Shown: piece after piece, positions 44,769 through 63,124 of the stretch
Layout: each line of letters starts with the position of its first letter
Position numbering within the stretch: the first letter of the stretch is position 1
Source: Rhodanobacteraceae bacterium
Lineage (GTDB): Bacteria; Pseudomonadota; Gammaproteobacteria; Xanthomonadales; Rhodanobacteraceae
Direction: 5' to 3'
NCBI GenBank assembly: GCA_021325475.1
Contig: JAJPHA010000026.1
Span: 1-64,000, forward strand
DNA: 64,000 nucleotides
The notes under the pieces: model-generated
The model's input: only the letters and a program-made list of their open reading frames with translations
Database searches by the model: none
What the model was told of the DNA's origin: nothing
Program-made: the position numbers and the translations under genes

Positions 44769-44802
44769 CGACCAACCGCCTCCACTGCGCGCAGTATACT
44801 CC

Positions 44803-46746
44803 TCACTCCGCCGCGGTTTCCCGCAGGGCGCGCAGCACCAGGCGGCGCAGCAGGCGTTCGCGGAAGTTGCGCGGGCGGTCGAGGTCGAGCCGGCGCAGCG
44901 CCGCCGCCTCGGCCGTCGCGGACACCGTGCCCGACCAAGCACCGAACGCGAACGCGGCCAGGCGCAGTTTGTGCGCGCTCAGCGCCTTCAGGCGTTGCAG
45001 GGCCGGCAGCAAGGCGAGCTCCTCCGCGTTGAAATCGCTGCCGAACGGAAATCTCGGCAACTGCGCGCGCCACGGCGCGAGCGTCTGCGCCAGATGTTCC
45101 GGCGTGTTGCGGCGCCAGGGTTCCGGAATGACGAAGTCCGGGCGCAGCTTGCCGGCCGCCTTGGCCTGCGCGGCCAGTGCATCCTGGAAGCGCGCGTCGG
45201 CGATCGCGAGCATGGCGACGATGCAGTCCTCGTCGGACTTGCCGCGCAGATCGGCCACGCCGTATTCGGTGACATAGATGTCGCGCAGATGTCGCGGAAT
45301 CGTGGTGTGGCCGTAGTTCCAGACGATGTTCGAGCGCACCCGGCCGCCGCTCTCGCGGGTGCTGCGCAGGAGCAGGATCGAGCGGCCGCGATCGAGCGCA
45401 TGCGCCATCGCCACGAAGTTGTACTGGCCGCCGACGCCGCTCACCACCTGACCGTCCTCGAGCGCGTCGGACACCGCCGCGCCGAGCAGTGTGGCCATCA
45501 TGCAGGTGTTGAAGAAGCGCGCCTGGCGGCGTTGCAGGGCGTCGAGCAGTTCGCGTCCGCCGTAGAGCTGGTTGATGTCGGACACGCGCGTCATCGACAG
45601 GCCGTTGAAGGCGTCGCCCTCGAGGCCGCGCAGCCAGGCGTAGAACTCCCGGGAACCGAGATAGAACGCGCCGCGCAGATAGCGGCCATCGTGCCGGTCG
45701 CGGAGATCCACCGGCTGCCCTTCGGCGAGCGCCAGTTCGATCATGAGATCGTCGTAGACCCGCCGCGACAAAATGCCGGCGCGGGCCAGGTGCATGAAAC
45801 CGTCCATCACCATCTCGCTCGCGCCGTAGAGACCCTGCGCGAATGGTGCGAGGCCGCCGTCGCGCTCGATCAGCGCGGCGTCGCCGCCGCCGAGCGCCGC
45901 CAGCGCCGCACGGTACGCGGCATTCTCGCGCTGGCGCAGCAGCAGGCCGTGGACGAGCGCATCCGACAGCGCGCCGATGCCGATCTGCAGGGTGCCACCG
46001 TCGCGCACCAGCGTGCTCGCGTGCAGGCCGAGCGCGTGCTCGGGCAGCGTCACCGGCTCGCGCACCAACGCGAACAGCTCGTGGCGACAGGCCGGATCCT
46101 CGAGGATCACGTCGAACAGTTCCGCTTCCACCTCGGCCTCGTGACCGATGAACGGCAGATCGGGATGGACCACGCCGACCAAGAGCGGCCGCGGCGCACC
46201 GGCCGCGCCGAGACGGTCGAGCAGATCGAAGGTGACGTCCGGGTTGCAGGCGAGACTGTAGCGCCGGCGGCCGTCCCGATCCTCGCGCACGGCGACGAGT
46301 TGGGTCAGAACGTTGATTCCGGCGTGCACCAGATCGCGCGCGACGTGGGTGTAGTTGAGGCTGATGTAATCGCGCTGTGACTGCGGCACGTGCAGCATGC
46401 TGCCGGACAGGAGATAGAACTCGTGCACACGCACGTTCGCCGGCAGCGCATTGGCGTGCTGGGCGACGACATAGGCGAGATCCGGATAGTCGGCGCCGAA
46501 ATGGCGCGCCAGAAACGGTTCGAGGAAGCGTCGCTCGAGATCGTTGTGCGGACGCGGCCGCGCCAGCGACAGCGCGGTGTACAGCGTCAGGCGCAACGAA
46601 GGGTCCGCGGCGACGCGCCGATAGATCGCGTTCAACAGCACGTTCGGTTTGCCGAGGCCGAGCGGCGCGGCCACGCGCAGGTGCGCGCCGGCGTGCGCGA
46701 AGATGCGCGCGCAGCACGTCGCCACGTCGTTCACGAACTCGGTCAT
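44803..46746 (-). CDS. Acetyl-CoA hydrolase/transferase family protein (long form)
   Basis: GVGGQYNFVAMAHAL, TEYGVADLRGKSD. Confidence 0.85.
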   Translation of the reverse strand: MTEFVNDVATCCARIFAHAGAHLRVAAPLGLGKPNVLLNAIYRRVAADPSLRLTLYTALSLARPRPHNDLERRFLEPFLARHFGADYPDLAYVVAQHANALPANVRVHEFYLLSGSMLHVPQSQRDYISLNYTHVARDLVHAGINVLTQLVAVREDRDGRRRYSLACNPDVTFDLLDRLGAAGAPRPLLVGVVHPDLPFIGHEAEVEAELFDVILEDPACRHELFALVREPVTLPEHALGLHASTLVRDGGTLQIGIGALSDALVHGLLLRQRENAAYRAALAALGGGDAALIERDGGLAPFAQGLYGASEMVMDGFMHLARAGILSRRVYDDLMIELALAEGQPVDLRDRHDGRYLRGAFYLGSREFYAWLRGLEGDAFNGLSMTRVSDINQLYGGRELLDALQRRQARFFNTCMMATLLGAAVSDALEDGQVVSGVGGQYNFVAMAHALDRGRSILLLRSTRESGGRVRSNIVWNYGHTTIPRHLRDIYVTEYGVADLRGKSDEDCIVAMLAIADARFQDALAAQAKAAGKLRPDFVIPEPWRRNTPEHLAQTLAPWRAQLPRFPFGSDFNAEELALLPALQRLKALSAHKLRLAAFAFGAWSGTVSATAEAAALRRLDLDRPRNFRERLLRRLVLRALRETAAE

Positions 46747-46867: not shown

Positions 46868-49279
46868 ATGAACGAGCGCTTCAAGATCGCGATCATCGGC
46901 TCCGGGCCGGGCGGATTGTCCGCGGCGGCGCGCGCGGCCGAGCGCGGCGTGCCGCACGTGCTGCTCGAGGCCGAGGACCATCTGTCCAACACGATCTACC
47001 GCTACCAGAAGGGCAAGTTCGTGATGGACGAACCGGGCATTCTGCCGCTGCGCGCGCCGGTGCCGTTCAAGGCCGGCTCGCGCGAGGAGATCCTCACGGC
47101 CTGGGACGAGGCGGCGGCACGGCTGAAGATCAACGTGCGCCTGAAGCACGAGGTCGCTTCGATCAAGCCTCTCGCCGGCGGCGGCTTCGAGATCAAGTGC
47201 AGCAACGGCCAGACCCTCGCCGCCGAATTCGTCGTGCTCGGCATCGGCCTGCAGGGCAACATCCGCAAGCTCGGCTGCCCGGGCGAGGACCTGCCGTTCG
47301 TGCAATACCAGCTCGACGACCCGGACGAATACGAAGGCGAAGTGATCGCCGTGGTCGGCGCCGGCGATGCGGCGATCGAGAACGCGGTGGCGCTGGCCAA
47401 GCAGAACAACGTCATCATCATCAATCGCAAGGACGAATTCGCGCGCGCCAAGAAGGCCAACGAGGCGGCGATCCTGAAGGCGATCGAGGACGGCACCATC
47501 GAGTGCTACTACAACTCCGCGCCGGAGCGCGTCGATGCGCTGAGCGTCGGCCGCAAGAAGGGCCGGATGATCCTCAACACCGCCAACGGCAAGGCGCAGA
47601 TCCTGCTCGATCGCGTGATCGCGCGCCTCGGCGCCACCGCGCCGCGCGGCTTCGTCGAAGCCTGCGGCGTGGTGTTCCCGAGCAAGGACCCGGCGGCGGT
47701 GCCGGCGATCAGCTCGCAGTACGAATCCAACGTCAAGGGGCTGTACATCGTCGGCGCGCTCGGCGGCTACCCGCTGATCAAGCAGGCGATGAACCAGGGC
47801 TACGAGGTCGTCGAATACATCCTCGGCCACAAGGTGGAGCCGGCGGACGAGCCGCTGCTCAAGGCGAAATTCGCGGCGATGCCGGGCTTCCGCAACGTCG
47901 AGGAGGCACTCGCCCGGGTGCAGAAGAACGTGCGCCTGCTCGCGCACATCACGCCGTTGCAGTTGCGCGAGTTCATGCTCGACTCGGACATCCGCACGCC
48001 GAAACCCGGCGAGACGATCTTCAGGCGCAACGATTACACCAACACGTTCTTTTCCATCGTCGAGGGCGAGGTGCACATCCTCATCGACGAGCAGCGCAAC
48101 CAGCGCGTCACGCTCAAGCGCGGCGAGTTCTTCGGCGAGATGAGCCTGATCTCCGGCCGGCGCCGCTCGGCCACCGTGCTCGCCGGCGCGAACTGCGTGC
48201 TGATCGAGACGCCGCGGCGTTCGATGAATCGCCTGATCAACTCGGTCGAGGCGGTCAAGCGCGAGATCGATCAGGTGTTCATCCTGCGCGCGGTGCAGTC
48301 GCGCTTCGCCGCCGAGGTGCCGGTGGAGCAGCTCGCCGAGGTGGTGGCCAACGCGCGCCTGGAGCGTTTCAAGGCCGGCGACGTGCTGTTCCACGAGGGC
48401 GAGATCGCCGATTGCCTGCATCTGGTGCGCTCCGGCTCGCTCACGATCTCGCGCAACATCGGCGGCAAGGACGTGGTGCTCTCCTACGTGCCGGCGGGCA
48501 ACTACGTCGGCGAGATGGCGCTGATGGGCGAGTCGCGCCGCTCGGCGACCGCGCGCGCCGCGATCGCGACCGAGACCGTGCGCCTCGATGGCGAGAGCTT
48601 CAAGAAGCTGGTCAACCGCGTACCGGTGCTGCGGCTCAAGCTGCAATCCGAATACCGCCAGCGCGCCGCCGCGAACCTGGCGATGCAGGCCGCGCCGGAA
48701 GGCGGCGACATCATCTCGTTCCTGATTTCCCAGGGCGCCGGCGAGGCCACCGACATCCTGCTGATCGACGAGTCGTTGTGCGTGCGTTGCGACAATTGCG
48801 AGAAGGCCTGCGCCGAGACCCACGGCGGCACCTCGCGGCTCGATCGCGAGGCCGGACCGACCTTCGCCAGCGTGCACGTGCCGACCTCGTGCCGCCACTG
48901 CGAACACCCGCATTGCATGAAGGATTGTCCGCCCGATGCGATCCACCGCGCGCCGAACGGCGAGGTGTTCATCGCCGACAACTGCATCGGCTGCGGCAAC
49001 TGCGAACGCAACTGCCCCTATGGCGTGATCCACATGGCGGCCAAGCCGCCGAAGAAGCCGGGCCTGATCCAGTGGCTGCTGTTCGGTCGCGGTTCCGGCC
49101 CGGGCGAAGCGCCGCTCGAGCCGAAGGCGAAGCAGGCCGCGACCGGCAAGAAGGCGGTCAAGTGCGACATGTGCAAAGGTATACCCGGCGGTCCGGCGTG
49201 CGTGCGCTCCTGTCCGACCGGCGCGGCGATCCGCATCTCCCCCGAGGAGTTTCCGGCGTATGCGCAATCGAGAAGATAG
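46868..49279 (+). CDS. FAD/NAD(P) oxidoreductase - two cNMP-binding domains - poly-[4Fe-4S] ferredoxin fusion
   Basis: IAIIGSGPGGLSAAARAAERG, VIAVVGAGDAAIENAVAL, two CNB modules (FGEMSLISGRRRSATV; VGEMALMGESRRSATA), four Cys clusters CVRCDNCEKAC / CRHCEHPHCMKDCP / CIGCGNCERNCP / CDMCKGIPGGPACVRSCP. Confidence 0.93.
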   Translation: MNERFKIAIIGSGPGGLSAAARAAERGVPHVLLEAEDHLSNTIYRYQKGKFVMDEPGILPLRAPVPFKAGSREEILTAWDEAAARLKINVRLKHEVASIKPLAGGGFEIKCSNGQTLAAEFVVLGIGLQGNIRKLGCPGEDLPFVQYQLDDPDEYEGEVIAVVGAGDAAIENAVALAKQNNVIIINRKDEFARAKKANEAAILKAIEDGTIECYYNSAPERVDALSVGRKKGRMILNTANGKAQILLDRVIARLGATAPRGFVEACGVVFPSKDPAAVPAISSQYESNVKGLYIVGALGGYPLIKQAMNQGYEVVEYILGHKVEPADEPLLKAKFAAMPGFRNVEEALARVQKNVRLLAHITPLQLREFMLDSDIRTPKPGETIFRRNDYTNTFFSIVEGEVHILIDEQRNQRVTLKRGEFFGEMSLISGRRRSATVLAGANCVLIETPRRSMNRLINSVEAVKREIDQVFILRAVQSRFAAEVPVEQLAEVVANARLERFKAGDVLFHEGEIADCLHLVRSGSLTISRNIGGKDVVLSYVPAGNYVGEMALMGESRRSATARAAIATETVRLDGESFKKLVNRVPVLRLKLQSEYRQRAAANLAMQAAPEGGDIISFLISQGAGEATDILLIDESLCVRCDNCEKACAETHGGTSRLDREAGPTFASVHVPTSCRHCEHPHCMKDCPPDAIHRAPNGEVFIADNCIGCGNCERNCPYGVIHMAAKPPKKPGLIQWLLFGRGSGPGEAPLEPKAKQAATGKKAVKCDMCKGIPGGPACVRSCPTGAAIRISPEEFPAYAQSRR

Positions 49280-49473
49280 GGCTGAAGGCCGAGGGCCAAG
49301 GGCCGAGGGCCGAGGGCTGAGGGCTGAGGCTTCGACTTCGCGCCTGCGGCGCGCAGCCCGACCTTCTCTTGGCGAATGGCTCGGCCCGAACGGATGGTGT
49401 GCGTCTGTCCGCTCACCGCTCACCGCTCACCGTTCACCGTTCACCACTCAGCCCTTGGCCCTCAGCCCTTGAC
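49279..49473. repeat. Heptamer-periodic repeat with facing arms (GGGCTGA and GCTCACC types)
   Basis: Left: 7 heptamers 49279-49327; right: GCTCACC x3, GTTCACC x2, ACTCAGC, CCTTGGC, CCTCAGC, CCTTGAC (49411-49473). Confidence 0.85.
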
Positions 49474-49477
49474 CCCC

Positions 49478-50374
49478 ATGCACGACTCGATCCTCACCTA
49501 CGCGAAGTCGCGCTATCTGTGGGTTGCCCTCGCGCTCGGCGCGGGCGCGCTCGCGGCCTACCTGTGGCACGACCCCGGCGGCCCGCCGAACGGCGGCACC
49601 TGGCTCGGGTACACCCTCGGCACGATCGGCGCCGCGCTGATCGTCTGGCTGATGTGGTTCGGCGTGCGCAAGCGCAGCTACGCCGGCGGCATCGGCACGC
49701 TGCGCGGCTGGCTGTCGGCGCACGTCTATCTCGGCACCACGCTGATCCTGATCGTGCTCCTGCACGCCGGTTTCCAGCTCCACTGGAACCTGCACACGTT
49801 CACGTTCGTGCTGATGCTGGGCGTGATCTTCTCCGGCTTCTTCGGCGTGTACGCCTATCTGCGCTATCCCACGCTGATGACGCGCAATCGCGAAAGCGCG
49901 ACCCGCGACGCCATGCTCGAGGAAATCGCCGAGATCGACCAGAACGCGCTGGCGCTCGCCGACGGCATCGACCCGAAGATCCACGCCCTGGTGCTGCGCT
50001 CGATCCAGAACACCCGGCTCGGCGGCGGCGCGTGGACCCAACTGCGCGCCCGCGACGGCTCCGATCTCGCGCTCGCCTCGCTGCACGAGGCCATGGCCGC
50101 GCGCGAACAGCGCAAGGAGATGGCCACCAGCGAAATGCCGACCATGTTCGCGATGGTCGATTTCCTCGCCGGCCGCGCCACCGACAAGCAGGGCGAGGCG
50201 ATGCGCAAGTTGATCGATCTGATCTCGCGCAAGAAGGCGCTGGCCACGCGCGTGGCGCGCGACATCCAGTTCCAGGCGCTGATGGAGGTCTGGCTGTACC
50301 TGCACGTGCCGCTGTCGTTCGCGCTGCTGGCGGCGCTGATCGGCCACATCGTGTCGTCGTTCTTTTATTGGTGA
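49478..50374 (+). CDS. Multi-pass membrane protein, candidate b-type cytochrome / ferric-reductase-like
   Basis: About 5 hydrophobic helices with intramembrane His (SAHVYLGTTLILIVLLHAGFQLHWNLHTF; WLYLHVPLSFALLAALIGHIVSSFFYW). Confidence 0.7.
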   Translation: MHDSILTYAKSRYLWVALALGAGALAAYLWHDPGGPPNGGTWLGYTLGTIGAALIVWLMWFGVRKRSYAGGIGTLRGWLSAHVYLGTTLILIVLLHAGFQLHWNLHTFTFVLMLGVIFSGFFGVYAYLRYPTLMTRNRESATRDAMLEEIAEIDQNALALADGIDPKIHALVLRSIQNTRLGGGAWTQLRARDGSDLALASLHEAMAAREQRKEMATSEMPTMFAMVDFLAGRATDKQGEAMRKLIDLISRKKALATRVARDIQFQALMEVWLYLHVPLSFALLAALIGHIVSSFFYW

Positions 50375-50470
50375 GGTCGGGATGAGTCGATCGATTGCAC
50401 GCCGTCGCATGATCGTCCGGGGGTGCCCGGAACCAGGTCTCACGCGCGGCAGCGCCGCCGTTCTCGTCGA

Positions 50471-50815
50471 TGTGTCCATTCGGTTTTCCGCTCGCGTCCA
50501 GCGCGCGGGTGACTTTTCTTTGCTCGTGCAAAGAAAAGTCACCAAAAGAAAGCACGTCAGAGCGGGCTTCGCCCTCGGGTTTGACGCAAAACCAATTTTG
50601 CCGGTCCACACACATTTCCATTGATATTCGGGTTTTCCGGAGCGAGCGTCACGTGATGCAAAAGCGCCTTGCCTGTGGAGTTGTGTGCGAGCCATCCGGG
50701 GAAGGTTTGCGCATATCCAGGGGCGTGCCCGATGCCCTTTCTTTGGCCACTTTCTTTGGGCAAGCAAAGAAAGCGGCCCGCTCGCAGGACGCGCGCGGAA
50801 AAATGGAGGGACACG
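50471..50815. repeat. Pair of inverted CAAAGAAAAG hairpin repeats with shared flanks
   Basis: GGTGACTTTTCTTTG-CTCGTG-CAAAGAAAAGTCACC (50508-50543) and GGCCACTTTCTTTG-GGCAAG-CAAAGAAAGCGGCC (50745-50778), flanked by GGACGCG(A/C)GCGGAAAA...GGACAC in opposite orientations. Confidence 0.85.
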
Positions 50816-50918
50816 GCTTGGACGCAGGCGGAAACGCGAAGGGATGCACCCACGAAAACCGCTCACCGAATCATGCGCAGGGGCGCTGCGCTCAAGAACG
50901 AGAAGAGGCACGGCCGTC

Positions 50919-52694
50919 ATGCGCTGGCTGATCCGCCGCGTCCTCAAGAAGGGCAAGGGCGCCGTCTCCTACGAGGAGGACGTCCACTACGGCGACGCCC
51001 TGACCATCGGCCGCGCCGCGGATCAGGCGATCTTCCTGCCGGATCTGCGCGTCGCCCTCAACCACGCGCGCGTCACCCTGCTCGCGAACGGGCAATACAA
51101 GATCGAATCACTGATCCTCGCCGGCATTCGCGTCGATGGCCAGATCGTCTATACGACGACCGCGGCGCCCGGCGCGGTGATCGAGATCGGCAACACCCGG
51201 CTGACGCTGCTGTCCGCACCGCAGGACTTCGACGGCGGCGTGGAGATCAGCACGCTCGACAAGACCGAGCAGAAAGCCGAGAAGGAGCGGCTCGCCAAGC
51301 CGACCCGGCTCGAACAGACGCGCCTGAGCAAACGCCGTCCGGCGTGGGTGCTGTTCCTCGTCATCCTCGTGTTCGGCCTGGTGCTGCCGATGATCGGCCA
51401 TTTCGTGCCCGGTTTCGGCGAGCTGCTGCGGCATACGCCGCTGCCGAGCACGCAGAGCTGGAATCCGGGTCCGCTCGACGCCGCCCACGGCTTCTTCGGC
51501 GGCGACTGCCAGCGCTGCCATCAGCACGCATTCCTGACCGTGCGCGACGCCGCCTGCCTCGCCTGCCACGCCAACACGCCGGCGCACGCCGATCCGGCAA
51601 AGTATAATCTTCCACAATTGGGCAACGCCGAGTGCCGCTCCTGCCACCAGGACCACCAGGGCGCGCGCGGCCTGAACCGCACCGACCAGCGCCTGTGCGC
51701 CGACTGCCACGGCGACTTGAAGACGCGCACCCGGAACGCGAGCCAGTTCGAGGACGTGCGCGACTTCGGCACCGCCCATCCGGAATTCAAGCTCCTGCTG
51801 CCGGCGTGGGACGCGAACGGCCGGTTCGCGCCGCAGCGGGTGACGTTCGCGCCCGACCTCAAGGAGAACTCGGGCCTCAAGTTCAACCACGCCAAGCACC
51901 TCAAGCCGGACGGCGTCAACGCGCCGCAGGGCCATCGCGTGCTCGATTGCGGAGACTGCCATGTCCCGGATGCCGGCGGCGCCAAGATGCGTCCGGTGAA
52001 CTTCGCGACGATGTGCCACGACTGCCACACGCTCGGCTTCGACCCGCTCGCACCCGGCCGCGAGGTGCCGCACGGCAAGGTGAGCGAGGTGATCTACACC
52101 TTGAACGAGTACTACGCGCGGGTCGCGCTGGAAGGCGGCTACCAGGACGCGAAATCGCCGGTGATCGTGCAGGAACGTCGGCGCCCCGGCGCACCACCGC
52201 TGTCGCAGCAGCAACAGCAGGAGGCGCTGGCCTGGGCGCGCGAGCAGGCGCGCAGCGTGACCGAGAGCCTGTTCACCGGTCGCGCCTGCACCACCTGCCA
52301 CAAGGTTTCGCCGCCGCGCGATGCCGCCGACACCTGGCACGTCGCCCCGGTGCGCGTGGCCGGCGTGTGGTACGCCGACGCCAAGTTCACCCACGCCAAG
52401 CACACCACGATCTCGTGCGACGACTGCCACGCCGCGCGCAAGTCTGAGGTTGCGAGCGATCTGCTGATTCCCGGCATCGGCAACTGCCGCGCCTGCCATG
52501 CCGGTGCCTATGCGAAGGACCGCGTGGCGACAACCTGTATCGCCTGCCACGAGTATCACCAGTCGTCGACGCTGCGGATGGGTCGCGCACAACTCGATCC
52601 GGGCTGCCTGGCGACGCCGCTGCCGATGGTGCTCGCGCAAGCGAAGGCCGAATCCGGCTGCGCGCCGCGCACGGCGCTGACGGGCGTGCCGTAA
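50919..52694 (+). CDS. FHA-like domain - TM - periplasmic decaheme c-type cytochrome
   Basis: N-terminal GDALTIGRAADQAIFLPDLRVALNHARVTLLANGQYKIESL...; TM PAWVLFLVILVFGLVLPMIGHFV; ten CXXCH motifs. Confidence 0.88.
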   Translation: MRWLIRRVLKKGKGAVSYEEDVHYGDALTIGRAADQAIFLPDLRVALNHARVTLLANGQYKIESLILAGIRVDGQIVYTTTAAPGAVIEIGNTRLTLLSAPQDFDGGVEISTLDKTEQKAEKERLAKPTRLEQTRLSKRRPAWVLFLVILVFGLVLPMIGHFVPGFGELLRHTPLPSTQSWNPGPLDAAHGFFGGDCQRCHQHAFLTVRDAACLACHANTPAHADPAKYNLPQLGNAECRSCHQDHQGARGLNRTDQRLCADCHGDLKTRTRNASQFEDVRDFGTAHPEFKLLLPAWDANGRFAPQRVTFAPDLKENSGLKFNHAKHLKPDGVNAPQGHRVLDCGDCHVPDAGGAKMRPVNFATMCHDCHTLGFDPLAPGREVPHGKVSEVIYTLNEYYARVALEGGYQDAKSPVIVQERRRPGAPPLSQQQQQEALAWAREQARSVTESLFTGRACTTCHKVSPPRDAADTWHVAPVRVAGVWYADAKFTHAKHTTISCDDCHAARKSEVASDLLIPGIGNCRACHAGAYAKDRVATTCIACHEYHQSSTLRMGRAQLDPGCLATPLPMVLAQAKAESGCAPRTALTGVP

Positions 52695-52769
52695 AGCCGC
52701 GCGCGGCAAGTGCTATGATGGGCCAAAACAAGAAGCCGCATCGGGGCGGTCGCACTCGGGAGGGAGGCG

Positions 52770-54824
52770 ATGGGGAGACCACAGATCCGCTGGCTGGCAC
52801 TGGCCTCGGCGCTCGCTCTCGCCGCCTGCGGCGGCGGCAGCAATTCCGGCAGCAGCACCGGCACCGCGCCGCCGCCGGCGGGGACGCCGGACTCCGGCTG
52901 CACCGGCTCGTGCGCGACGGCGCAGTCGCTGCTCACCGTCGGCGACGTGCAGACCGTCATCGCCCAGGCCGCCAACGAGGCGCAGGCGCAGGGCAAGCCG
53001 GCGGTGATCGCGGTGGTCGATCGCGTCGGCAACGTGCTCGCCGTCTACCGCATGACCGGCGCGCCGCTCACGGTCACGATCACCTCGCAGCGCGGCGTGG
53101 TCGGCGGCCTGGAGAATCTCGCCGTGCCGAGCGAACTCGCCGCGATCGCCAAGGCGATCACCGGCGCCTACCTGTCCTCCGAAGGCAACGCCTTCTCGTC
53201 GCGCACGGCCAGCCAGATCGTGCAGCAGCATTTCAATCCGGGCGACCTCGGCACGCCCTCCGGACCGCTGTTCGGCGTGCAGTTCTCGCAACTGCCGTGC
53301 TCGGACCTGTCCACCCGGTTCACGCACGGCACCGGCCCCGGTCCGCACCGTTCGCCGCTCGGCCTGTCGGCCGATCCCGGCGGATTCCCATTGTATAAAA
53401 GTGGAACTCCGGTCGGCGGCATCGGCGTGGCCGCGGACGGCGTCTACGGACTCGATCCGGAGGTGATGGACCGCGACCGCGACGTCGACGAATACATCGC
53501 CATGGCCGGCACCTACGGCTTCGGCGCACCCCTGGACCGCCGCGCCGACCGCATCACCGCCGGCGGCATCACGCTGCGCTTCAGCGACGTCGACTACGCC
53601 GATCTCGCCGCCAATCCGGCGAGCGCGCCGCCCTACGCCGCGCTGACCGGCAGCCTGATCGCCGTGCCGGGCTACGCCGACGCCACCATCCTCGCCGGCA
53701 CCGCGTTCGGCCAGACCGCCTCCGGCTATCGTCCGGACACCGCGTTCTATCCGGGCCTCGACGCCTTCGTGCTCGACGACGGCACCGGCAACAACCGCTA
53801 TCCGCCGATCGCCGGCACCGACGGCGGCAATGCCCTCACTGTCACCGAGGTGCAGACCCTGATGCAGCAGGCGCTCGCCGTCGCCAACCGCGCGCGCGCG
53901 CAGATCCGCAATCCGGTCGGCAGCCAGGCGCGGGTGACGGTGTCGATCGTCGATACCAACGGCGTGGTGCTGGCGCTGGCGCGGACGCGCGACGCGCCGG
54001 TGTTCGGCACCGACGTGTCGCTGCAGAAGGCGCGCACCGCGGCGTTCAACTCCGGCGCCTACGCCGCCAGCGATCTCGCCAACGCCGCCTCCGCCGCGGC
54101 GGGCGTGTTCACGCCGGCCGCCGCCGATTATCTCGCCGCCAGCATCGATCCGAACGCGCATACCGCGAAGTTCACCGTGCTCGGCACCAGCCACCTCGGC
54201 GACTACGTGACGCGCCTGCGCGCCTTCCTCGGCCTGCCGAACGCGCTCGGCGACGGCGCTGTCGCGTTCACCGACCGCGCCGGCGGCAACCTGGCGCGGC
54301 CGTTCTATCCGGACGGCATCGACGGCGACCCGCCCGGACCGTTCAGCTATCCGCTGGCGCAGTGGAGCCCGTTCAATGTCGGCCAGCAACTCGATCTGGT
54401 CTACAACCGCCTGGCGTTCCACGTCGCGTTCTATCTGCAAAACGCGCCGGCGCCGCTCGGCCCGCTCACCGTCTCCGTCGGCAACGTGACGTTGCCGGCG
54501 CTGCCCGACGTGGCGCAGAACTGCACCGGCATCGCGCGCCTGCCGAACGGCATCCAGATCTTCCCGGGCAGCGTGCCGATCTACCGCGGCAGCACGCTGG
54601 TCGGCGGCATCGGCGTGTCCGGCGACGGCGTCGACCAGGACGACATGGTGAGCTTCCTCGGCCTGTACAACGCCGGCCTCAAGCTCGGCGGCAGCATCGC
54701 CAACGCACCGCCGGCGATGCGCGCCGACCAGCTCGCGCCGCAGGGCTCGCACCTGCGCTACGTGGAATGTCCGCAGGCGCCGTTCCTCGACACCAACGAC
54801 GCCAACGTTTGCGACGGGAAGTGA
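52770..54824 (+). CDS. Lipoprotein with two HbpS/GlcG-type (DUF336) domains
   Basis: LALASALALAACGGG lipobox; LLTVGDVQTVIAQAANEAQAQGKPAVIAVVDRVGNVLAVYRM and ALTVTEVQTLMQQALAVANRA...VTVSIVDTNGVVLALART; VGGIGVAADGV and VGGIGVSGDGV. Confidence 0.85.
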   Translation: MGRPQIRWLALASALALAACGGGSNSGSSTGTAPPPAGTPDSGCTGSCATAQSLLTVGDVQTVIAQAANEAQAQGKPAVIAVVDRVGNVLAVYRMTGAPLTVTITSQRGVVGGLENLAVPSELAAIAKAITGAYLSSEGNAFSSRTASQIVQQHFNPGDLGTPSGPLFGVQFSQLPCSDLSTRFTHGTGPGPHRSPLGLSADPGGFPLYKSGTPVGGIGVAADGVYGLDPEVMDRDRDVDEYIAMAGTYGFGAPLDRRADRITAGGITLRFSDVDYADLAANPASAPPYAALTGSLIAVPGYADATILAGTAFGQTASGYRPDTAFYPGLDAFVLDDGTGNNRYPPIAGTDGGNALTVTEVQTLMQQALAVANRARAQIRNPVGSQARVTVSIVDTNGVVLALARTRDAPVFGTDVSLQKARTAAFNSGAYAASDLANAASAAAGVFTPAAADYLAASIDPNAHTAKFTVLGTSHLGDYVTRLRAFLGLPNALGDGAVAFTDRAGGNLARPFYPDGIDGDPPGPFSYPLAQWSPFNVGQQLDLVYNRLAFHVAFYLQNAPAPLGPLTVSVGNVTLPALPDVAQNCTGIARLPNGIQIFPGSVPIYRGSTLVGGIGVSGDGVDQDDMVSFLGLYNAGLKLGGSIANAPPAMRADQLAPQGSHLRYVECPQAPFLDTNDANVCDGK

Positions 54825-54825
54825 C

Positions 54826-56652
54826 ATGCGCCCACGATTCCGTTCCCGCCTCCTGCCGGCCGCGATCGCGCTCGCCGCGACTGCGCCATTTTCCACGAAT
54901 ATACTCGCGCAAACGGCAGCGTTGGCCGCGCCCAGCCTGCTCGAACTCGTGGGCGTGCTGCCCGGCCCGACCTACGATCCGGCCGAATCGCGGATTCCGC
55001 GGCGCCGCCCCGGCCATCCCTACTCGCCGCCGCCGGAATTCACCGTGCAGAATCCGGACGGCGTGCCGCCGGCGCCGGTCGATCAGGCCGGCGAGTTCCT
55101 CCCGGTGCCGGATCGCTGGCGCATCATGGAAACGCTCGGCTTCCGCTTTCCGTGGTACGACCCGTACAACCAGAACGTGCTCAAGGGCGACAAGCCGATC
55201 GACGGCAAGGATCACTTCCTCAGCCTGAGCTTCATCTCCGATACCTTCCTCAAGGCGCAGAGCACGCCGCTGCCGGTCGGTCCGCAGGGCACCGGCAGCG
55301 CCGGCGAACTCGACGTGCTCGGCCGCGTCCACCAGCGCGCCTTCGTGCAGAACTTCATCGCCAGCGTCGATTACTACAAGGGCGACACCACGTTCAAACC
55401 GCCGGAGATCGAATACAAGGTCACGCTCGCCTTCAACTACAACCGGGTCAACACCCAGGAAGCGCGCGCGCTGCAGATCGATCCGCGCCTCGGCACCGAC
55501 CGCGACGACGGCTTCGTCGGCGTGCAGGAGCTGTGGGTGGACAAGCATCTGCGCGACGTCGATTCGCGCTACGACTTCGACAGCCTGCGCATCGGCATCC
55601 AGCCGTTCTCCACCGATTTCCGCGGCTTCCTGTTCCAGGATTCGCAACTCGGCATCCGCCTGTTCGGCAATCGCGACAACAACCGCTGGCAGTACAACCT
55701 CGCCTGGTTCCGCCGGCTGGAGAAGGATCTCAACTCCGGCCTCAACGACGTCACCCGCAAGCCGCGCAACGACGACATCCTGATCGCCAACCTGTATCGC
55801 CAGGATTTCCCGTTCCTCGGCTACACCTCGCAGGTGACGCTGGTCTACAACCGCAACCACGACGACCGCATCTACGACTCCAACGGCTTCATCGAGCGGC
55901 CGGCGGCGATCGGCCTGCAACTGCCGCGCACGTATCACGTCACCTACTTCGGCTACAACGGCGACGGCCACATCGGCCGCGTCAACCTCACCGCCTCGGC
56001 CTACGGCGTGCTCGGCCATCAGTCGCATGGCGTCTTCGTCGAGGAATCCACCCGCATCCGCGCCGGCTTCCTCGCCGCCGAGGCGTCGATGGATTTCGAC
56101 TGGATCCGCGCGCGCCTGTCCGGCGCCTATGCCAGCGGAGACAAGAACGCCTACGACAAGCGCTCGACCGGCTTCGATGCGATCTTCGAGAACCCGATCT
56201 TCGCCGGCGCCGACACCAGCTACTTCATCAGCCAGGGCATTCCGCTGATCGGCGGCGGCGGCGTGGCGCTGGTACAGCCGAACGGCATGCTGCCGGACCT
56301 GCGCACCTCGAAGGAACTCGGCCAGTCGAATTTCGACAACCCGGGACTGCGCCTGCTCGGCGTCGGCGGCGACTTCGACCTGGCACCCAGCTCGCGCCTG
56401 TCGGCGAATCTCAACGAGCTCTGGTTCGACCACACCGCGACGCTCGAGGCCGCGCGCCAGCAGGGTCCCATCGGCCGCCGCATCGGCACCGATGCCTCGG
56501 TGGCGTGGATCTACCGGCCGTTCTTCACCCAGAACATCGTGTTCCGCCTGTCCGGCGCGGCGCTGCGGCCCGGCGGCGGCTTCAAGAGTCTGTACGGCAC
56601 CGAGCACTCGCTGTACTACTCGGTGCTGGCCAACGTGATCCTGACCTACTGA
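54826..56652 (+). CDS. Predicted outer-membrane beta-barrel (porin-like)
   Basis: Signal peptide, alternating amphipathic strands with many aromatic residues, C-terminal YYSVLANVILTY. Confidence 0.78.
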   Translation: MRPRFRSRLLPAAIALAATAPFSTNILAQTAALAAPSLLELVGVLPGPTYDPAESRIPRRRPGHPYSPPPEFTVQNPDGVPPAPVDQAGEFLPVPDRWRIMETLGFRFPWYDPYNQNVLKGDKPIDGKDHFLSLSFISDTFLKAQSTPLPVGPQGTGSAGELDVLGRVHQRAFVQNFIASVDYYKGDTTFKPPEIEYKVTLAFNYNRVNTQEARALQIDPRLGTDRDDGFVGVQELWVDKHLRDVDSRYDFDSLRIGIQPFSTDFRGFLFQDSQLGIRLFGNRDNNRWQYNLAWFRRLEKDLNSGLNDVTRKPRNDDILIANLYRQDFPFLGYTSQVTLVYNRNHDDRIYDSNGFIERPAAIGLQLPRTYHVTYFGYNGDGHIGRVNLTASAYGVLGHQSHGVFVEESTRIRAGFLAAEASMDFDWIRARLSGAYASGDKNAYDKRSTGFDAIFENPIFAGADTSYFISQGIPLIGGGGVALVQPNGMLPDLRTSKELGQSNFDNPGLRLLGVGGDFDLAPSSRLSANLNELWFDHTATLEAARQQGPIGRRIGTDASVAWIYRPFFTQNIVFRLSGAALRPGGGFKSLYGTEHSLYYSVLANVILTY

Positions 56653-56662
56653 GGCCGCGGTC

Positions 56663-59600
56663 ATGACCAAGACGAAACCGATCGGCCTGCCTCTCGTCCT
56701 GCTCGGCGTGCTCGTCGCCGCGCGCGGCGCGATCGGCCACGAGGACGACGCGGCCGCCCGCCGCTACGCGCCGGCGCCGCCCGCGCCGGCGTTCCAGAGC
56801 TGGGACGAGGCCGGGAAGAAATCGGCCGGCTGCGTGTCCTGCCACACCCAGTCCGACCGCAAGACCATGCACGCCAGCGAAGCAGTGGTGCTCGGCTGCA
56901 CCGACTGCCACGGCGGCGATGCCGCGGTGCACGCGCCGCCCGGCGAAACCTGGTCGGCCGACGAACACCACGGCGCGCGCGACTGGTCGGCGGCGTACCG
57001 CGCGGCGATGGATCGGGCGCACATCCTGCCGAACGATCCGGCGCACTGGCCGACCAGCGCCAATCCGGAACGCAGCTACACCTGGTGGATGAAGGAATCG
57101 CTCGAATTCGTGCGCTTCGTCAATCCCGGCGATCTGCGCGTGGCCGACGAAGCCTGCGGCGCCTGCCATCTGCCGGCGATCCTCGCCAATCAGAAGAGCC
57201 TGATGGCGAACGCGGCGATGTTCTGGGGCGCGGCGGCATACAACAACGGCATCCTGCCGTACAAGCACTCGATCCTCGGCGAGGCCTACACCAAGGACGG
57301 CCAGCCGGCGGCGGTCGACAGCAAGATCGAACCGGACGCGAACATGACCGCGCACGGCATCCTGCCGAAGATCTATCCGATGCCGAGCTGGGAGACGACG
57401 CCGCCGGGCGACATCTTCCGCGTGTTCGAGCGCGGCGGCCGCAACATCGGCACGCTGTTCCCGGAGATCGGCCTGCCCGACGAAGCCGGTCTGATCCAGC
57501 GCCTGGAGGAACCCGGCCGGCCCGACATCCGCCAGTCCAACCGCGGTCCCGGCACCGGCAACCGCGTCGCGATCCCGGTGCTCAACATCACCAAGACGCG
57601 CCTCAACGATCCGTTCCTCTGGTTCCTCGGCACCAACGACAACCCCGGCGACTTCCGCTCCTCCGGCTGTTCGGCCTGCCACGTGGTCTACGCCAACGAC
57701 CGCGACGTGTTCCATGCGGCGATCTACGCGAAATACGGCAACATGGGCACCTCGCAGCAGAGCGATCCGACCATCCCGCACGGCGAATCGGGCCATCCGC
57801 TCAAGCACGAATTCACCCGCCGCATTCCGACCAGCCAGTGCATGATCTGCCACATGCACCAGCCGAACATGTTCATCAACACCATGCTCGGCTACACGAT
57901 GTGGGACTACGAATCCGACGCGCCGTTCCTGTGGCCGGAGAAGCAGCAGTACCCGAGCGACGACGAGGCGCGCAAGGTGCTCGACCGCAATCCCGAGGAG
58001 GCCGCGATCCGCGGCAAATGGGCGAGCGTCGATTTCCTCAAGGACGTCAGCCGACTCAATCCGCAACTGCACGACACCCAGTTCGCCGATTACCACGGCC
58101 ACGGCTGGAATTTCCGCGGCGTGTTCGCGCGCGACCGCAAGGGCGATCTGCTCGACAAGGACCGCCGCATCGTCGCCGACGACGATCCGGCCAAGTGGCA
58201 GAAGGCCGTGCACCTGCAATCGATCCACGTCGACGTCGGCATGCAGTGCGTGGACTGCCATTTCGCCCAGGACGCGCACGGCAACGGCTACCTCAAGGCC
58301 GAGGTGATGGGCGCGGTCGAGATCCAGTGCCAGGACTGCCACGGCACCGTCGATGCCTACCCGACGCTGAAGACCTCCGGTCCGGCCGCTTCGCCGCACG
58401 GCCGCGATCTCAAGCTGATCCGCAATCCGGACGGCAAGAAGCGCTTCGAATGGGTGGACGGCAAGCTGATCCAGCGCTCGGCAGTGACGCCGGGCCTGGA
58501 ATGGACCATGACCCTGCTCAAGGACGCCTCCGACCCGAAGTCGGCCAACTACGACGCCAAGGCCACGCGCGCGCACACCGTGGCGATGGATCCCGACACC
58601 CAGCGCTTCGGCGCGGACGTGCCAAAGGACCAGCGCGCGCATGGCGAGGACAAGATGCTGTGCTACGCCTGCCACACCTCGTGGACCACGAGCTGCGGCG
58701 GCTGCCATCTGCCGATCCAGGCGAACTGGAAGACCGAGCGCCACAAGTACGAGGGCGGCTACACCCGCAACTACGCCACCTACAACCCGCAGGTCGCGCG
58801 CGACGAGATGTTCTTCCTCGGCGTGCACGGCGAGATCAAGAACCACAAGATCGCGCCGGTGCGCTCGTCCTCGGCGCTGGTGCTGTCCTCGACCAACATC
58901 AACCGCGAGCGCATCTACATCCAGCAGCCGCCGATCTCGGCGGCCGGTTATTCGTCGCAGGCGTTCGCGCCGCACTACCCGCACACCGAGCGCAAGACCG
59001 AAACCCGCCAGTGCGACGATTGCCACCTGGCGAAGAACAACGACAACAACGCGATCCTGGCGCAGACGCTGCTGCTCGGCACCAAGTTCATCGACTTCAT
59101 CGGCTTCAACGCCTGGGTCGGCGAAGCCGGCGCCGTGGGCGCCGTGCAGGTGACGGAATGGGACGAGCCGCAGGCGGTGATCGGCAGCTATCTGCACCGC
59201 TATGCCTATCCCGACTGGTACCAGCAGCATCAGCAGCGCGGCCAGCGGCTCGCCAACGCCAGCGAGCACGACGCCGGCGAAGCGCAGTGCCTGCAGTTGC
59301 GCGGCGAATACCTGTACGTGGCCGAAGGCGCCAAGGGCATGCGCGTCTACGACGTCGCCAGCATCGCCAACAAGGGCTTCTCCGAGAAGCTCATCACCGC
59401 GCCGTTCTCGCCGCTCGGCCAGGACACGCACATTGCCTCGAAGAACGCCACCTGCGTGGCGCTGGCGACCACCCAGCCGGTCGATCCGGCGCGCAACCAG
59501 AGCGAGCTGATGCAGGGCGCGAATCAGGAACAGGTGATGAACCCGATCTACCGCTACGCCTTCATCACCGACGCCGAGGAAGGCCTGATCGCCACCGACA

Positions 59601-60460
59601 TCACCACCCTGCACGACCGCGAGCCGCGCAACAATTTCCTGAAACGCGCACTCACCTGGAACGAGAACGGCGTGCTCGCCGGCGCGCGCCACCTCGCCAT
59701 CGCCGGCAACACGTTCTATGTCGCGACCGACCGCGGCGTGGTCGTGCTCGACATGCGCGATCCACTCAAGCCGAAACATCTGGCCACCGTGCCGATCGCC
59801 GAGGCGCAGGCCGCGCAGGTGCAGTTCCGCTACCTGTTCGTCAGCGCCAGGGACGGCCTGCACGTGGTCGATGTCACCCATCCGGAGCGGGCGCGCGAGG
59901 TGGCGCACGTGCCGCTGCGCGACGGCCACAAGCTGCATGTCGCGCGCACTTATGCCTACGTCGCCGCCGGCGCCGACGGCATCGCCATCATCGACGTGAC
60001 CCGGCCCGAACAGCCGTTCGTGTACCAGATGTTCAACGCCGGCGGCAAGATCGCGGATGCGCGCGACGTCGTGATCGGCACCACCAATGCCTCGCTGTTC
60101 GCCTACGTGGCCGACGGCAGCAACGGTCTCAAGGTCGTGCAACTCACCAGCCCCGAGGCGCAGCCGAAATTCTACGGCTTCAGTCCGGAGCCCAAGCCGC
60201 AACTGATCGCCTGGTATCCGACCAAGGCCCCTGCCCTGTCGCTGTCGCGCGGCCTGGAACGCGATCGCGCGGTGGACGAATCCGGCAACCAGGTGGCGAT
60301 CTTCGGTCGCATCGGCTCGCGGCCGTTCCATCTCGACGAGATGCAGAAGCTGTATCTCAAGCCGGACGGCACGCCGTGGTTCGTGGACGATCGCGACGAC
60401 GGCGGGCGCCGCGCAGGTGCGGCGAACACGCCCGCAACGGAAGCGCACGCGAACCGATGA
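56663..60460 (+). CDS. Large secreted decaheme cytochrome c with LVIVD-type beta-propeller
   Basis: Signal peptide; CVSCH, CTDCH, CGACH, CSACH, CMICH, CVDCH, CQDCH, CYACH, CGGCH, CDDCH; C-terminal repeats GVVVLDMRDPLKPKHLA, GLHVVDVTHPERAREVA, GIAIIDVTRPEQPFV, GLKVVQLTSPEAQPKF. Confidence 0.93.
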   Translation: MTKTKPIGLPLVLLGVLVAARGAIGHEDDAAARRYAPAPPAPAFQSWDEAGKKSAGCVSCHTQSDRKTMHASEAVVLGCTDCHGGDAAVHAPPGETWSADEHHGARDWSAAYRAAMDRAHILPNDPAHWPTSANPERSYTWWMKESLEFVRFVNPGDLRVADEACGACHLPAILANQKSLMANAAMFWGAAAYNNGILPYKHSILGEAYTKDGQPAAVDSKIEPDANMTAHGILPKIYPMPSWETTPPGDIFRVFERGGRNIGTLFPEIGLPDEAGLIQRLEEPGRPDIRQSNRGPGTGNRVAIPVLNITKTRLNDPFLWFLGTNDNPGDFRSSGCSACHVVYANDRDVFHAAIYAKYGNMGTSQQSDPTIPHGESGHPLKHEFTRRIPTSQCMICHMHQPNMFINTMLGYTMWDYESDAPFLWPEKQQYPSDDEARKVLDRNPEEAAIRGKWASVDFLKDVSRLNPQLHDTQFADYHGHGWNFRGVFARDRKGDLLDKDRRIVADDDPAKWQKAVHLQSIHVDVGMQCVDCHFAQDAHGNGYLKAEVMGAVEIQCQDCHGTVDAYPTLKTSGPAASPHGRDLKLIRNPDGKKRFEWVDGKLIQRSAVTPGLEWTMTLLKDASDPKSANYDAKATRAHTVAMDPDTQRFGADVPKDQRAHGEDKMLCYACHTSWTTSCGGCHLPIQANWKTERHKYEGGYTRNYATYNPQVARDEMFFLGVHGEIKNHKIAPVRSSSALVLSSTNINRERIYIQQPPISAAGYSSQAFAPHYPHTERKTETRQCDDCHLAKNNDNNAILAQTLLLGTKFIDFIGFNAWVGEAGAVGAVQVTEWDEPQAVIGSYLHRYAYPDWYQQHQQRGQRLANASEHDAGEAQCLQLRGEYLYVAEGAKGMRVYDVASIANKGFSEKLITAPFSPLGQDTHIASKNATCVALATTQPVDPARNQSELMQGANQEQVMNPIYRYAFITDAEEGLIATDITTLHDREPRNNFLKRALTWNENGVLAGARHLAIAGNTFYVATDRGVVVLDMRDPLKPKHLATVPIAEAQAAQVQFRYLFVSARDGLHVVDVTHPERAREVAHVPLRDGHKLHVARTYAYVAAGADGIAIIDVTRPEQPFVYQMFNAGGKIADARDVVIGTTNASLFAYVADGSNGLKVVQLTSPEAQPKFYGFSPEPKPQLIAWYPTKAPALSLSRGLERDRAVDESGNQVAIFGRIGSRPFHLDEMQKLYLKPDGTPWFVDDRDDGGRRAGAANTPATEAHANR

Positions 60461-60574: not shown

Positions 60575-62995
60575 CTACAACACCGCCTCGGCGAAATCGA
60601 AGGTCCAGTCGGACAGCCAGCCGCTGAGCGCGTCGCCCTGCACGTAGTGCACGCCGAGCTTGAGCAGCGCGGCGAGGTCGCTCATGCCCGCCACCTGGCA
60701 GGCGACCGTGATCTTGCCGAGCGAGCGCGCCTGGGACAGCGGCGCGGCCAGCGTTTCCCACACCTTGTCCGGCTTGCCCTCGACCTGCGGACGCGCGAAG
60801 CGGATCACGCTGAACGCCTCGACCGCGAACAACCGCTCCATCGCCTCCGGCGGCGGAGTGCCGAGATCGAGCGCCAAGCGCACGCCGATGCGTTGCAGAT
60901 TCTCCAGCGCGCCGTGCAGGCGCGCGAGCTCGGCGCGCGCCTCGGCGGCGCTCACCTGCAGCGCGATCAGCGCGCCCGGCACCGCCTGCGCGCGCAGTTC
61001 CGCCGCCAGCCACGGCGCGAACGCCGGATCGAACAGCGTGGCGACGCTGACCGGCACGTACAGGCGCAACTCGCGCTCGGCCGCCTTGCGTTCGCGGATC
61101 AGCTCGATCACGCCGCGCAGGGCGTGGCGGTCGGCGTGCGCGACCAGGTTGAGCTCGCGCGCCAGCGGCAGGTAGTCGGCGCGGGTCAGCCGCAGCGCAT
61201 GCGTGGACTTCGGCGGCGCCAGCTCCATGCGGGTCTCGTACTGGCCGGCGATGTGGCCGGCGAGCGGCACCAGCGGCTGGAATTCGAAACGCGCCGTGCC
61301 ACGGATGCTCGGCGAACGCAGGATGGCGCGTACCAGCCTTCGCTGCGGCGTCTCGTCGGTGTCGATGCTGACCGCGCGCAGATCGAATTCGCAGCGACCG
61401 CCACCGGCCTGTTGCGCATTCGCGCATTGCGTGCGGACACGTTCGAGCGCCTCCTCGACCTGCGCCAGCTCCGCCGGCAGCCGCACGCAGCCGATGCTGA
61501 AGCCGAGCTTGAGCGGCTGCTCCGCGGACAGCCACTGGCGCGCCTCGAGCTTGCGCCGCAATTCCTCCAGACGCGTGCGCACGGTGAGCTCGTCGTCGCC
61601 GTGCAGCAGCACGAGGTAGCGCAACTCGCCCCACGCGCTCAGGGTGCGCGCGCCGGAGATCTCCGCCGCCAGCGCCGCCGCCACCTGCTGCGGCAGCGTG
61701 CCGCCGGCGACGAAGCCGATGCTGCGCAGCACGTCCTCGGCGTCGTCCACCGCGATCAGCGCCAGCGCCGGGCAACGGTCCTGCTCCTCGCGTGCCGCGC
61801 GCAGGATCTCGCGCGCCATCACGTCGCGCCCGGAGAAGTTGCCGCGCCGCTCGCCGACCTGCTCGGGCCGGCCCGCGTGCAGCGCGCGCGCACGCTTGAT
61901 GCGGCTCTCGACCGTGGTCACCAGATGCCGCGGCTTCACCGGCTTGGTGATGAAGTCGTCGGCGCCGACGCGGATCGCGTCGAAGCGCAGATCGAGATCG
62001 AGCTCGCCCGACAGGAACACGATCGGCAGGAACGCATGCCCGGCCTGGGCGCGGATGTGCTCGGCGATCTCGATGCCGTTGCCGCCTGGCAGGTAGAGAT
62101 CGAGCAGCACGAGGTCGGGCTTGAAATCGGCCAGCGCGGCGTCGACACGCTTCGGATCCTCGCACACGCTGGTGATCATGCCGCGATGGCGCAGGATCGA
62201 TTCGCAGAATTTCGCCTGGCCGCGGTCATCCTCGACGATCAGCACGCGGTAGCCGAGCGCGCGCCGTTGCGCCCACAGGGCGTCGAGCCGCGCCACCAGC
62301 GCCACCGGATCGCGCTCGGTGACCACGGCGTCGGCACCCGCGCGCTGCGCGAACAGGGTGCGGGTGAGGTCGGTCTCCTCCGCCAGCACCAAACACAGGG
62401 CGGCGTCCTTGTGCGCCGGACGGCAGCGCTGCACCGCCTCGGTGAGCGCGTGCACCTCGGCGACGAACGCCTCGTCCACCAGCAGGATGTCGGGGCTCGC
62501 TTCGTCCAGCGCCAGCAACAGGCGATCGCGTTCGTCGAACGGCCGCACGATGCAGCCGTGCTGGCCGAGGCGCGCCGCCAGCCCCGGAATCTCGCGCGAC
62601 TCGCCGCGCAGGTAGAACACCTGGCGGCGGCTGCTGTCCGCCGCCTCGGCGGGCTTGCGCTGCGCGCGCTTGGCCGGAGTCTCACCGGTCGCCGCGGCCA
62701 GACGCTCGATCAGGCGCTCCAGCTCCTGGCGCTGCGCCGGATTCGGCGCGGCGTCGCGATCGACGAACGAACACAGGTACACCGTGAGTTCGAGCGCCGG
62801 CGCGGCGAGCTCCGCGGCGCCCTGTTCCTCCGCCAGCGCCGCCAGCCGCTCGAGTTCCTCGTACAGCGCGCTCGCGGAAGCGCTCTGCCATTGCTGGCCG
62901 AGTCCGCTGCGCCAACCCTCGAGGAACGCCTGTACGCGCTGGCGCAGGGCGCGATCGCCGCCGGCGCCGGCGGCAGAAGCCGAGCTGCTCGTCAT
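60575..62995 (-). CDS. Response regulator with pseudo-REC, REC, degenerate GGDEF and degenerate EAL domains
   Basis: REC YRVLIVEDDRGQAKFC...DLVLLDLYLPGGNG...FITKPVKP; GGDEF site reads LHGDDELTV; EAL region FEFQPLVPLAGHIAGQYETRMEL. Confidence 0.82.
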   Translation of the reverse strand: MTSSSASAAGAGGDRALRQRVQAFLEGWRSGLGQQWQSASASALYEELERLAALAEEQGAAELAAPALELTVYLCSFVDRDAAPNPAQRQELERLIERLAAATGETPAKRAQRKPAEAADSSRRQVFYLRGESREIPGLAARLGQHGCIVRPFDERDRLLLALDEASPDILLVDEAFVAEVHALTEAVQRCRPAHKDAALCLVLAEETDLTRTLFAQRAGADAVVTERDPVALVARLDALWAQRRALGYRVLIVEDDRGQAKFCESILRHRGMITSVCEDPKRVDAALADFKPDLVLLDLYLPGGNGIEIAEHIRAQAGHAFLPIVFLSGELDLDLRFDAIRVGADDFITKPVKPRHLVTTVESRIKRARALHAGRPEQVGERRGNFSGRDVMAREILRAAREEQDRCPALALIAVDDAEDVLRSIGFVAGGTLPQQVAAALAAEISGARTLSAWGELRYLVLLHGDDELTVRTRLEELRRKLEARQWLSAEQPLKLGFSIGCVRLPAELAQVEEALERVRTQCANAQQAGGGRCEFDLRAVSIDTDETPQRRLVRAILRSPSIRGTARFEFQPLVPLAGHIAGQYETRMELAPPKSTHALRLTRADYLPLARELNLVAHADRHALRGVIELIRERKAAERELRLYVPVSVATLFDPAFAPWLAAELRAQAVPGALIALQVSAAEARAELARLHGALENLQRIGVRLALDLGTPPPEAMERLFAVEAFSVIRFARPQVEGKPDKVWETLAAPLSQARSLGKITVACQVAGMSDLAALLKLGVHYVQGDALSGWLSDWTFDFAEAVL

Positions 62996-63124
62996 GAAGT
63001 CCACGCCATCGGATCAACCCGCACTATACCGGGCCGGCGCGCATTTCGGCAGAGCCGGCGTGCGGATGGCGCGTGACGGCGCGGCGGAGTAATCTCGCGG
63101 TTTCGATTCCGGCCGCGCATCACC

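Follow-up and report, generated by a model that had tools for sequence, protein, structure and literature searches.

A candidate two-module electron export system in a Rhodanobacteraceae bacterium, apparently an undescribed variant of the porin-cytochrome system

In a Rhodanobacteraceae bacterium (assembly GCA_021325475.1), six open reading frames (ORFs), here called g1 to g6, occupy positions 46868 to 60460 on the forward strand of the stretch of DNA analyzed (the window: contig JAJPHA010000026.1, positions 1 to 64,000), the same coordinates at which an earlier, sequence-only reading had placed them. Together they may encode a two-module system that exports electrons from NAD(P)H to a substrate at the outer membrane or outside it, a reading to which we would give roughly even odds. 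The set is apparently an undescribed, widespread variant of the porin-cytochrome system, and a literature search, whose reach excluded most of the subscription literature, found the six genes described nowhere. The ORF map and family scans bore out the six co-directional ORFs and the domains previously assigned to them (Table 1).

How would such a system work? Electrons from NAD(P)H would enter the flavin adenine dinucleotide (FAD) of g1 and move on to its four [4Fe-4S] clusters, which would pass them to the cytoplasmic-side b heme of g2. This heme would be one of a stacked pair, and through the pair the electrons would traverse the inner membrane and reach the decaheme domain of g3 on the periplasmic side. 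From there a tetra/pentaheme cytochrome of the c554 type, whose gene lies elsewhere in the genome, would relay them through the periplasm. The outer-membrane barrel g5, with the lipoprotein g4, would then position or feed the terminal decaheme/propeller protein g6, which would reduce the substrate either at the outer membrane or outside it. Entry would probably be gated by the two cyclic-nucleotide domains of g1. The order of the carriers, the outward direction, the location of g6, and the gating are what we infer.

Table 1. Positions of the candidate export genes (g1 to g6 in the window; the cytochrome elsewhere in the same genome)
Feature	Position	Strand	Length (amino acids)	Basis
g1, cytoplasmic electron-entry protein (predicted)	46868..49279	+	803	Pfam, conserved motifs
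g2, inner-membrane diheme cytochrome b (predicted), five helices	49478..50374	+	298	Motifs, alignment
g3, FHA-like domain, one transmembrane helix (residues 142-160), decaheme c-type cytochrome	50919..52694	+		Pfam, motifs
g4, HbpS/GlcG-repeat lipoprotein	52770..54824	+	684	PF03928, 3 stretches; lipobox LAAC
g5, predicted outer-membrane beta barrel	54826..56652	+	608	AlphaFold model, Foldseek
g6, exported decaheme cytochrome, C-terminal LVIVD (propeller-type) repeats	56663..60460	+	1265	Pfam, motifs
c554-type cytochrome, unlinked to g1-g6	G000:C119:4648-6012			PF13435

THE INNER-MEMBRANE MODULE

What do the sequences themselves offer? They offer domains, invariant cofactor ligands, topology motifs, gene linkage, and a gene fusion. 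In g1, Pfam recognizes a FAD/NAD(P) Pyr_redox domain, two cyclic-nucleotide (cNMP)-binding domains, and Fer4 4Fe-4S domains; PF13247 scores 36.6 bits against a cut-off of 26.2, and the gene stands directly upstream of g2. Sixteen Fe-S cysteines are invariant across 59 sequences, a number that fits four [4Fe-4S] clusters, a complement likened to that of DmsB/FdhB-type subunits. Equally invariant (59/59) are the FAD motif G-x-G-P-x-G, the NAD motif G-x-G-D, and the cNMP phosphate-binding residues Arg433 and Arg558 of the two cassettes. No N-terminal signal was seen in g1, and its FAD/NAD(P) and Fe-S domains agree with the cytoplasmic electron-entry protein that had been proposed.

The second protein had been called a His-rich, multi-pass membrane protein, a description that holds for the membrane passes but says too little: g2 carries two WX3HX13H motifs (residues 78 and 272), a pair kept in all 47 sequences, along with an SGXXG motif kept in 46 of them. 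Its helices were counted from hydropathy, the fourth being two overlapping peaks, and its start was moved from 49376 by conservation in the alignment. In ferric reductases and NADPH oxidases, two HX13H helices bind two b hemes that are fed by a cytoplasmic NAD(P)H flavoprotein, and g2, given the shared HX13H geometry, may work like that core. Unlike those enzymes, g2 gave no match in a Pfam scan, PF01794 included, and in the proposed path Fe-S clusters relay the electrons from flavin to b heme, after which they move on to multiheme c cytochromes.

The third protein, whose start was also corrected, matches the FHA and c3/c7 heme domains of Pfam; a PDB sequence search with g3 returned FHA proteins only. 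Exactly 10 CXXCH motifs are present in 64 of 64 sequences, as in the sequence-only reading, and the roughly ten further conserved histidines, nine of them invariant, would be about enough to give each heme a distal ligand. Does the FHA-like domain bind phosphothreonine? The serine of its SxxH phosphothreonine site is gone in most sequences, so canonical binding is doubted and any link to a kinase is weaker. As for how electrons reach g2, two genomes have g1 and g2 as a single ORF (L192:5844-9203 and L193:3046-6420); the next gene is a g3 relative that has 9 CXXCH motifs, and no outer module is nearby. This fusion argues that g1 feeds g2 directly.

PCC3 and PCC4 are putative clusters set out by He et al. 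in 2017, in whose main text the inner-membrane protein of both has five helices, SGXXG on helix 4, and WX3HX13H on helices 3 and 5 (PMC5566968). Because g2, also of five helices, carries the same motifs, the inner module here, judged by them, is related to the PCC4 type. The same main text gives PCC4 a PF13247 Fe-S protein whose gene precedes that of the inner-membrane protein (Subgroup II) and periplasmic 10-heme and tetraheme cytochromes, and notes a joined Fe-S/inner-membrane protein gene as well (PMC5566968). PCC4 is given periplasmic cytochromes of 4, 5, and 10 hemes; present here are the 10-heme g3 and the unlinked c554-type protein with its four CXXCH and one CX4CH, and a separate third cytochrome was not found. 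Unlike PCC4 as that text presents it, the set has extra FAD/NAD(P) and two cNMP domains in g1 and an extra FHA-like domain in g3, and its outer module consists of an LVIVD decaheme protein, an HbpS lipoprotein, and an 18-strand barrel. That text describes PCC4 without an extracellular multiheme cytochrome (PMC5566968); g6 is an exported decaheme protein of 1265 residues with a putative surface location. A g5 profile showed no similarity to two uncharacterized ORFs beside PCC4-like loci, which are not established porins.

The earlier remark that the set was not recognized as one of the named conduits stands in part: no family model of a named conduit was matched, but g2 is already of the type that the main text of PMC5566968 describes for PCC3 and PCC4. 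The g1 entry protein with its FAD/NAD(P) and cNMP domains, the FHA-decaheme protein, and the whole outer module are absent from that main text; part of the inner module may be tabulated in the supplement, where further HX13H inner-membrane proteins are listed. A distant PCC4-like locus (L195) encodes a cNMP/Fe-S protein without Pyr_redox, a g2-like cytochrome b, and a 10-heme protein, and a separate NAD-binding/2Fe-2S reductase adjoins its c554-type cytochrome, an arrangement that suggests NAD(P)H as the donor.

CO-OCCURRENCE AND DISTRIBUTION

Do the two modules belong together? A g5 barrel profile found 511 loci in the GTDB collection of 84,980 species genomes; loci were counted among the best 80 of these, 59 of which had enough flank. 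All six genes lie together in 51 of the 59, with identical order and strand in 50, while in the remaining one (L137) g1 is relocated behind g6. Adjacency in 51 of 59 flanked relatives is also the outcome of the co-occurrence check that the sequence-only reading had set in advance as its refuting test. In the other eight loci the inner module is cut or absent. A search that covered six of these eight genomes, all without g2 at the locus, plus two duplicates and one further relative found g2 elsewhere in every one, seven distinct genomes counting L138. Among 399 sampled Pseudomonadota genomes, g6 was strongly matched in 11, and all 11 have g2; g2 without g6 was also found in this sample. The modules can be as far apart as in G653, where about 670 kb separates them. 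Collinear six-gene copies are found in other genera, families, and classes, so the grouping exceeds chance.

The named carriers of the g5 profile are mostly Gamma- and Alphaproteobacteria, many of them soil and marine bacteria, and include Tahibacter, Dokdonella, Solimonas, Alcanivorax, Steroidobacter, and Sphingobium. Most of these named genera are usually regarded as ordinary aerobic organotrophs. In Sphingobium the barrel gene occurs on plasmids, one of which, typed as conjugative and opened in full, holds all six genes under generic NCBI names only.

A SEVENTH COMPONENT AND SECOND-MESSENGER CONTEXT

The six genes do not make up the whole set. Clustering of neighboring genes brought out a c554-type cytochrome (PF13435, about 450 amino acids) that adjoins them in 33 of the 80 loci; its alignment has four CXXCH motifs and one invariant CX4CH. 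In the Lysobacterales its gene is unlinked, yet all 10 genomes tested have it. As we read these neighborhoods and alignments, this multiheme cytochrome is a seventh part of the system.

PP2C genes stand beside the c554-type cytochrome in 6 of the 80 loci, CHASE2-cyclase genes near the set in 5, and one more CHASE2 gene on the Sphingobium plasmid. Combined with the cNMP domains of g1, these neighbors suggest second-messenger control of the system. In the present genome the cytochrome gene opens a separate run (L223; G000:C119:4648-13609) in which it is followed by genes for a Ser/Thr kinase, a PP2C phosphatase, an Ig-domain autotransporter, and a caspase/Sel1 protein; the last two, like fabI, dnaQ, and rnhA near the same cytochrome, were judged unrelated.

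What would it mean if the export reading were true? Directed electron export from NAD(P)H would be much commoner outside the iron reducers than thought, it might be switched by second messengers, it could be tested in culturable carrier genera, and the hypothetical PCC4-type inner-membrane protein would gain a likely electron donor. In a bolder version, the set would represent an unrecognized class of trans-envelope conduit, gated by cyclic nucleotides and driven by NAD(P)H, which is widespread in aerobic Alpha- and Gammaproteobacteria, avoids the quinone pool, and ends in a surface decaheme/propeller terminal oxidoreductase. This we consider rather unlikely.

THE OUTER MODULE: CONDUIT OR CHANNEL PLUS ENZYME?

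To briefly describe the outer proteins, g4 relatives have a lipobox in 56 of 76 cases by a simple pattern, and two tandem copies of the gene occur at L072:5779-9996 and likewise at L029. The barrel predicted for g5 is borne out by its AlphaFold model (18 strands of useful length; mean predicted local distance difference test score [pLDDT], 57) and by Foldseek, where the top match is AlgE (E of about 1e-13), followed by Campylobacter MOMP and the Pseudomonas Occ porins, all of the matches listed being outer-membrane barrels. Besides the barrel, g5 has a conserved N-terminal stretch of about 120 amino acids, and identity among aligned relatives is 58 to 78%. No NCBIfam family was matched by g5, and PDB sequence searches with g5 and g6 gave nothing significant. 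A Chiayiivirga metagenome-assembled genome (MAG) has g5 apparently split by about 1.1 kb near residue 133, perhaps an insertion (L115:8605-11428). As for g6, it has a hydrophobic N-terminal segment, exactly 10 CXXCH motifs in 70 of 70 sequences (the decaheme count given earlier), and more than 10 further invariant histidines; the family scan matched LVIVD at 5.8e-14 and heme domains as well.

Several properties of these proteins weigh against a surface conduit. (i) When mean pairwise identity was compared for all six proteins, g6 was highest (65%) and g3 lowest (38%); between distant carriers the means run from 34% (g3) to 63% (g6). In known conduits the cytochromes at the surface tend to diverge quickly, and g6 could be a substrate-specific enzyme rather than a generic surface conductor. 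(ii) g6 is without a lipobox, and the tools used gave no signal for surface placement. (iii) The predicted structure of its decaheme region has a pLDDT of 44 and was kept out of the fold search. (iv) In its model, the g5 barrel looks the size of a substrate channel, too narrow for an MtrB-like sheath around a decaheme protein; the strand counts in the main text of PMC5566968 are 28 for MtrB, 24 to 32 for MtoB/PioB, and up to 42 for PCC3 porins. The conduit chain across the outer membrane that the sequence-only reading had drawn finds no support in the size of the barrel or in the placement of g6.

A strongly constrained g6 and a channel-sized barrel keep a different arrangement a serious rival. 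Here g5 would be a selective channel for a soluble substrate, such as an oxyanion, and g6 a periplasmic reductase or oxidase, while g1 to g3 and the c554-type cytochrome would only link it to the inner membrane, with no electrons crossing the outer one. We hold this as a possible, if tentative, explanation. The g5 model resembles the substrate channels named above and not MtrB, and g6, the best conserved of the six, has weak local similarity to ExtM, ExtO, and ExtN, which belong to the Geobacter selenite/tellurite operon; the porin of that operon, ExtI, has been implicated in the reduction of both oxyanions (PMC5877670). However, g6 scores 71.5 bits against the ExtM cut-off of 800 and was rejected as a member of that family. 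The g4 lipoprotein and the propeller suggest assembly at the outer membrane or the surface, and two 10-heme proteins exceed what a simple reductase chain needs.

Could the current instead run inward? g6 would then oxidize an extracellular donor (Fe(II), Mn(II), an electrode, or humics), and g2 would deliver electrons to the quinone pool or, uphill, to NAD(P)+. This seems quite improbable: the NAD(P) domain of g1 favors outward flow from NAD(P)H, and the named cultured carriers belong mostly to genera of aerobic organotrophs, not lithotrophs. Speaking for uptake, the main text of PMC5566968 proposes the PCC3/PCC4 type of inner-membrane protein for electron uptake by iron oxidizers, and a 10-heme "Forkhead-associated protein," perhaps a g3 relative, is listed without comment in 27 Gallionellaceae iron-oxidizer genomes (PMC10734462, Table 1).

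OTHER KNOWN SYSTEMS

Outward export through g1 to g6 also has to be set beside better known systems. MtrCAB, MtoAB, and PioAB likewise join decaheme cytochromes to an outer-membrane barrel, but their inner-membrane entry is of the CymA kind, in contrast to a flavin-FeS-cytochrome b here. Membership was rejected, g5 falling outside the MtrB/PioB family (TIGR03509, at least 24 strands) with its 18 modeled strands. A search of the genome itself for MtrB/PioB gave no match, in a run in which the control match was also silent. The DmsE/MtrA family (TIGR03508) was rejected for g3 at 24 bits against a cut-off of 192.2.

PCC3 shares the inner-membrane protein with the same motifs, a porin, and exported and periplasmic multiheme cytochromes. 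Its cytochromes mostly have more hemes than g3 and g6, those of the Gallionellaceae 21 to 27 in the periplasmic and 10 to 35 in the extracellular protein (PMC10734462), and its porins have up to the 42 strands already cited from PMC5566968. With 10 CXXCH motifs each in g3 and g6 and about 18 strands in the g5 model, membership was rejected.

The Geobacter ext operon, extHIJKLMNOPQS, resembles the set in its porin, several multiheme cytochromes, and membrane b cytochrome (PMC5877670). Unlike it, the set has no rhodanese, Rieske, or selenocysteine cytochrome, its entry module is different, and its scores lie far below the family cut-offs. Uet of Ca. Tenderia, taken by its description in PMC10734462, is a predicted porin-multiheme complex with propeller-type repeat proteins. 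It comprises the undecaheme UetJ, tetraheme and triheme partners, a peptidylprolyl isomerase, and NHL-repeat units (PMC10734462); on that description alone, Uet was rejected for differing heme counts and gene content.

LOCUS AND SURROUNDINGS

The genome around the window is 2.9 Mb and 99.97% complete, and its nearest named relatives in the g5 profile search of GTDB are Rhodanobacteraceae, Rudaea-type MAGs among them. As had been noted earlier, the last two intergenic gaps are short, 1 nucleotide between g4 and g5 and 10 between g5 and g6. In this genome g1 and g2 are separated by 198 nucleotides and g2 and g3 by 544, which makes a single transcript only a possibility. Two independent operons side by side, an inner-membrane redox regulator (g1 to g3) and an unrelated outer-membrane heme-protein set (g4 to g6), would suit the genomes with g1 to g3 alone and the 544-nucleotide gap with its terminator-like site (50489-50511, of a kind no more frequent than in shuffled sequence), but the presence of g2 in every examined genome with a full g6, even far apart, and the same gene order across two classes make this very improbable.

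Divergent from g1, on the minus strand, is an acetyl-CoA hydrolase-like gene (44803-46746), which, with an uncharacterized gene (43020-44942, minus strand), neighbors the set in most Rhodanobacteraceae carriers. Downstream of g6 are a convergent response-regulator/GGDEF/EAL gene (60575-63004, minus strand) and xseA. The g2-g3 gap holds a palindrome-like repeat, TTTCTTTGNNNNNGCAAAGAAA, twice (50515-50536 and 50751-50772); it has six sites across the 2.9-Mb genome, against zero for a reversed control, and may be a dispersed intergenic element that has broken up the operon. The g1-g2 gap holds 14-nucleotide direct repeats of the GGGCCGAGGGCTGA type (49278-49326 and 49426-49475), with an inverted counterpart.

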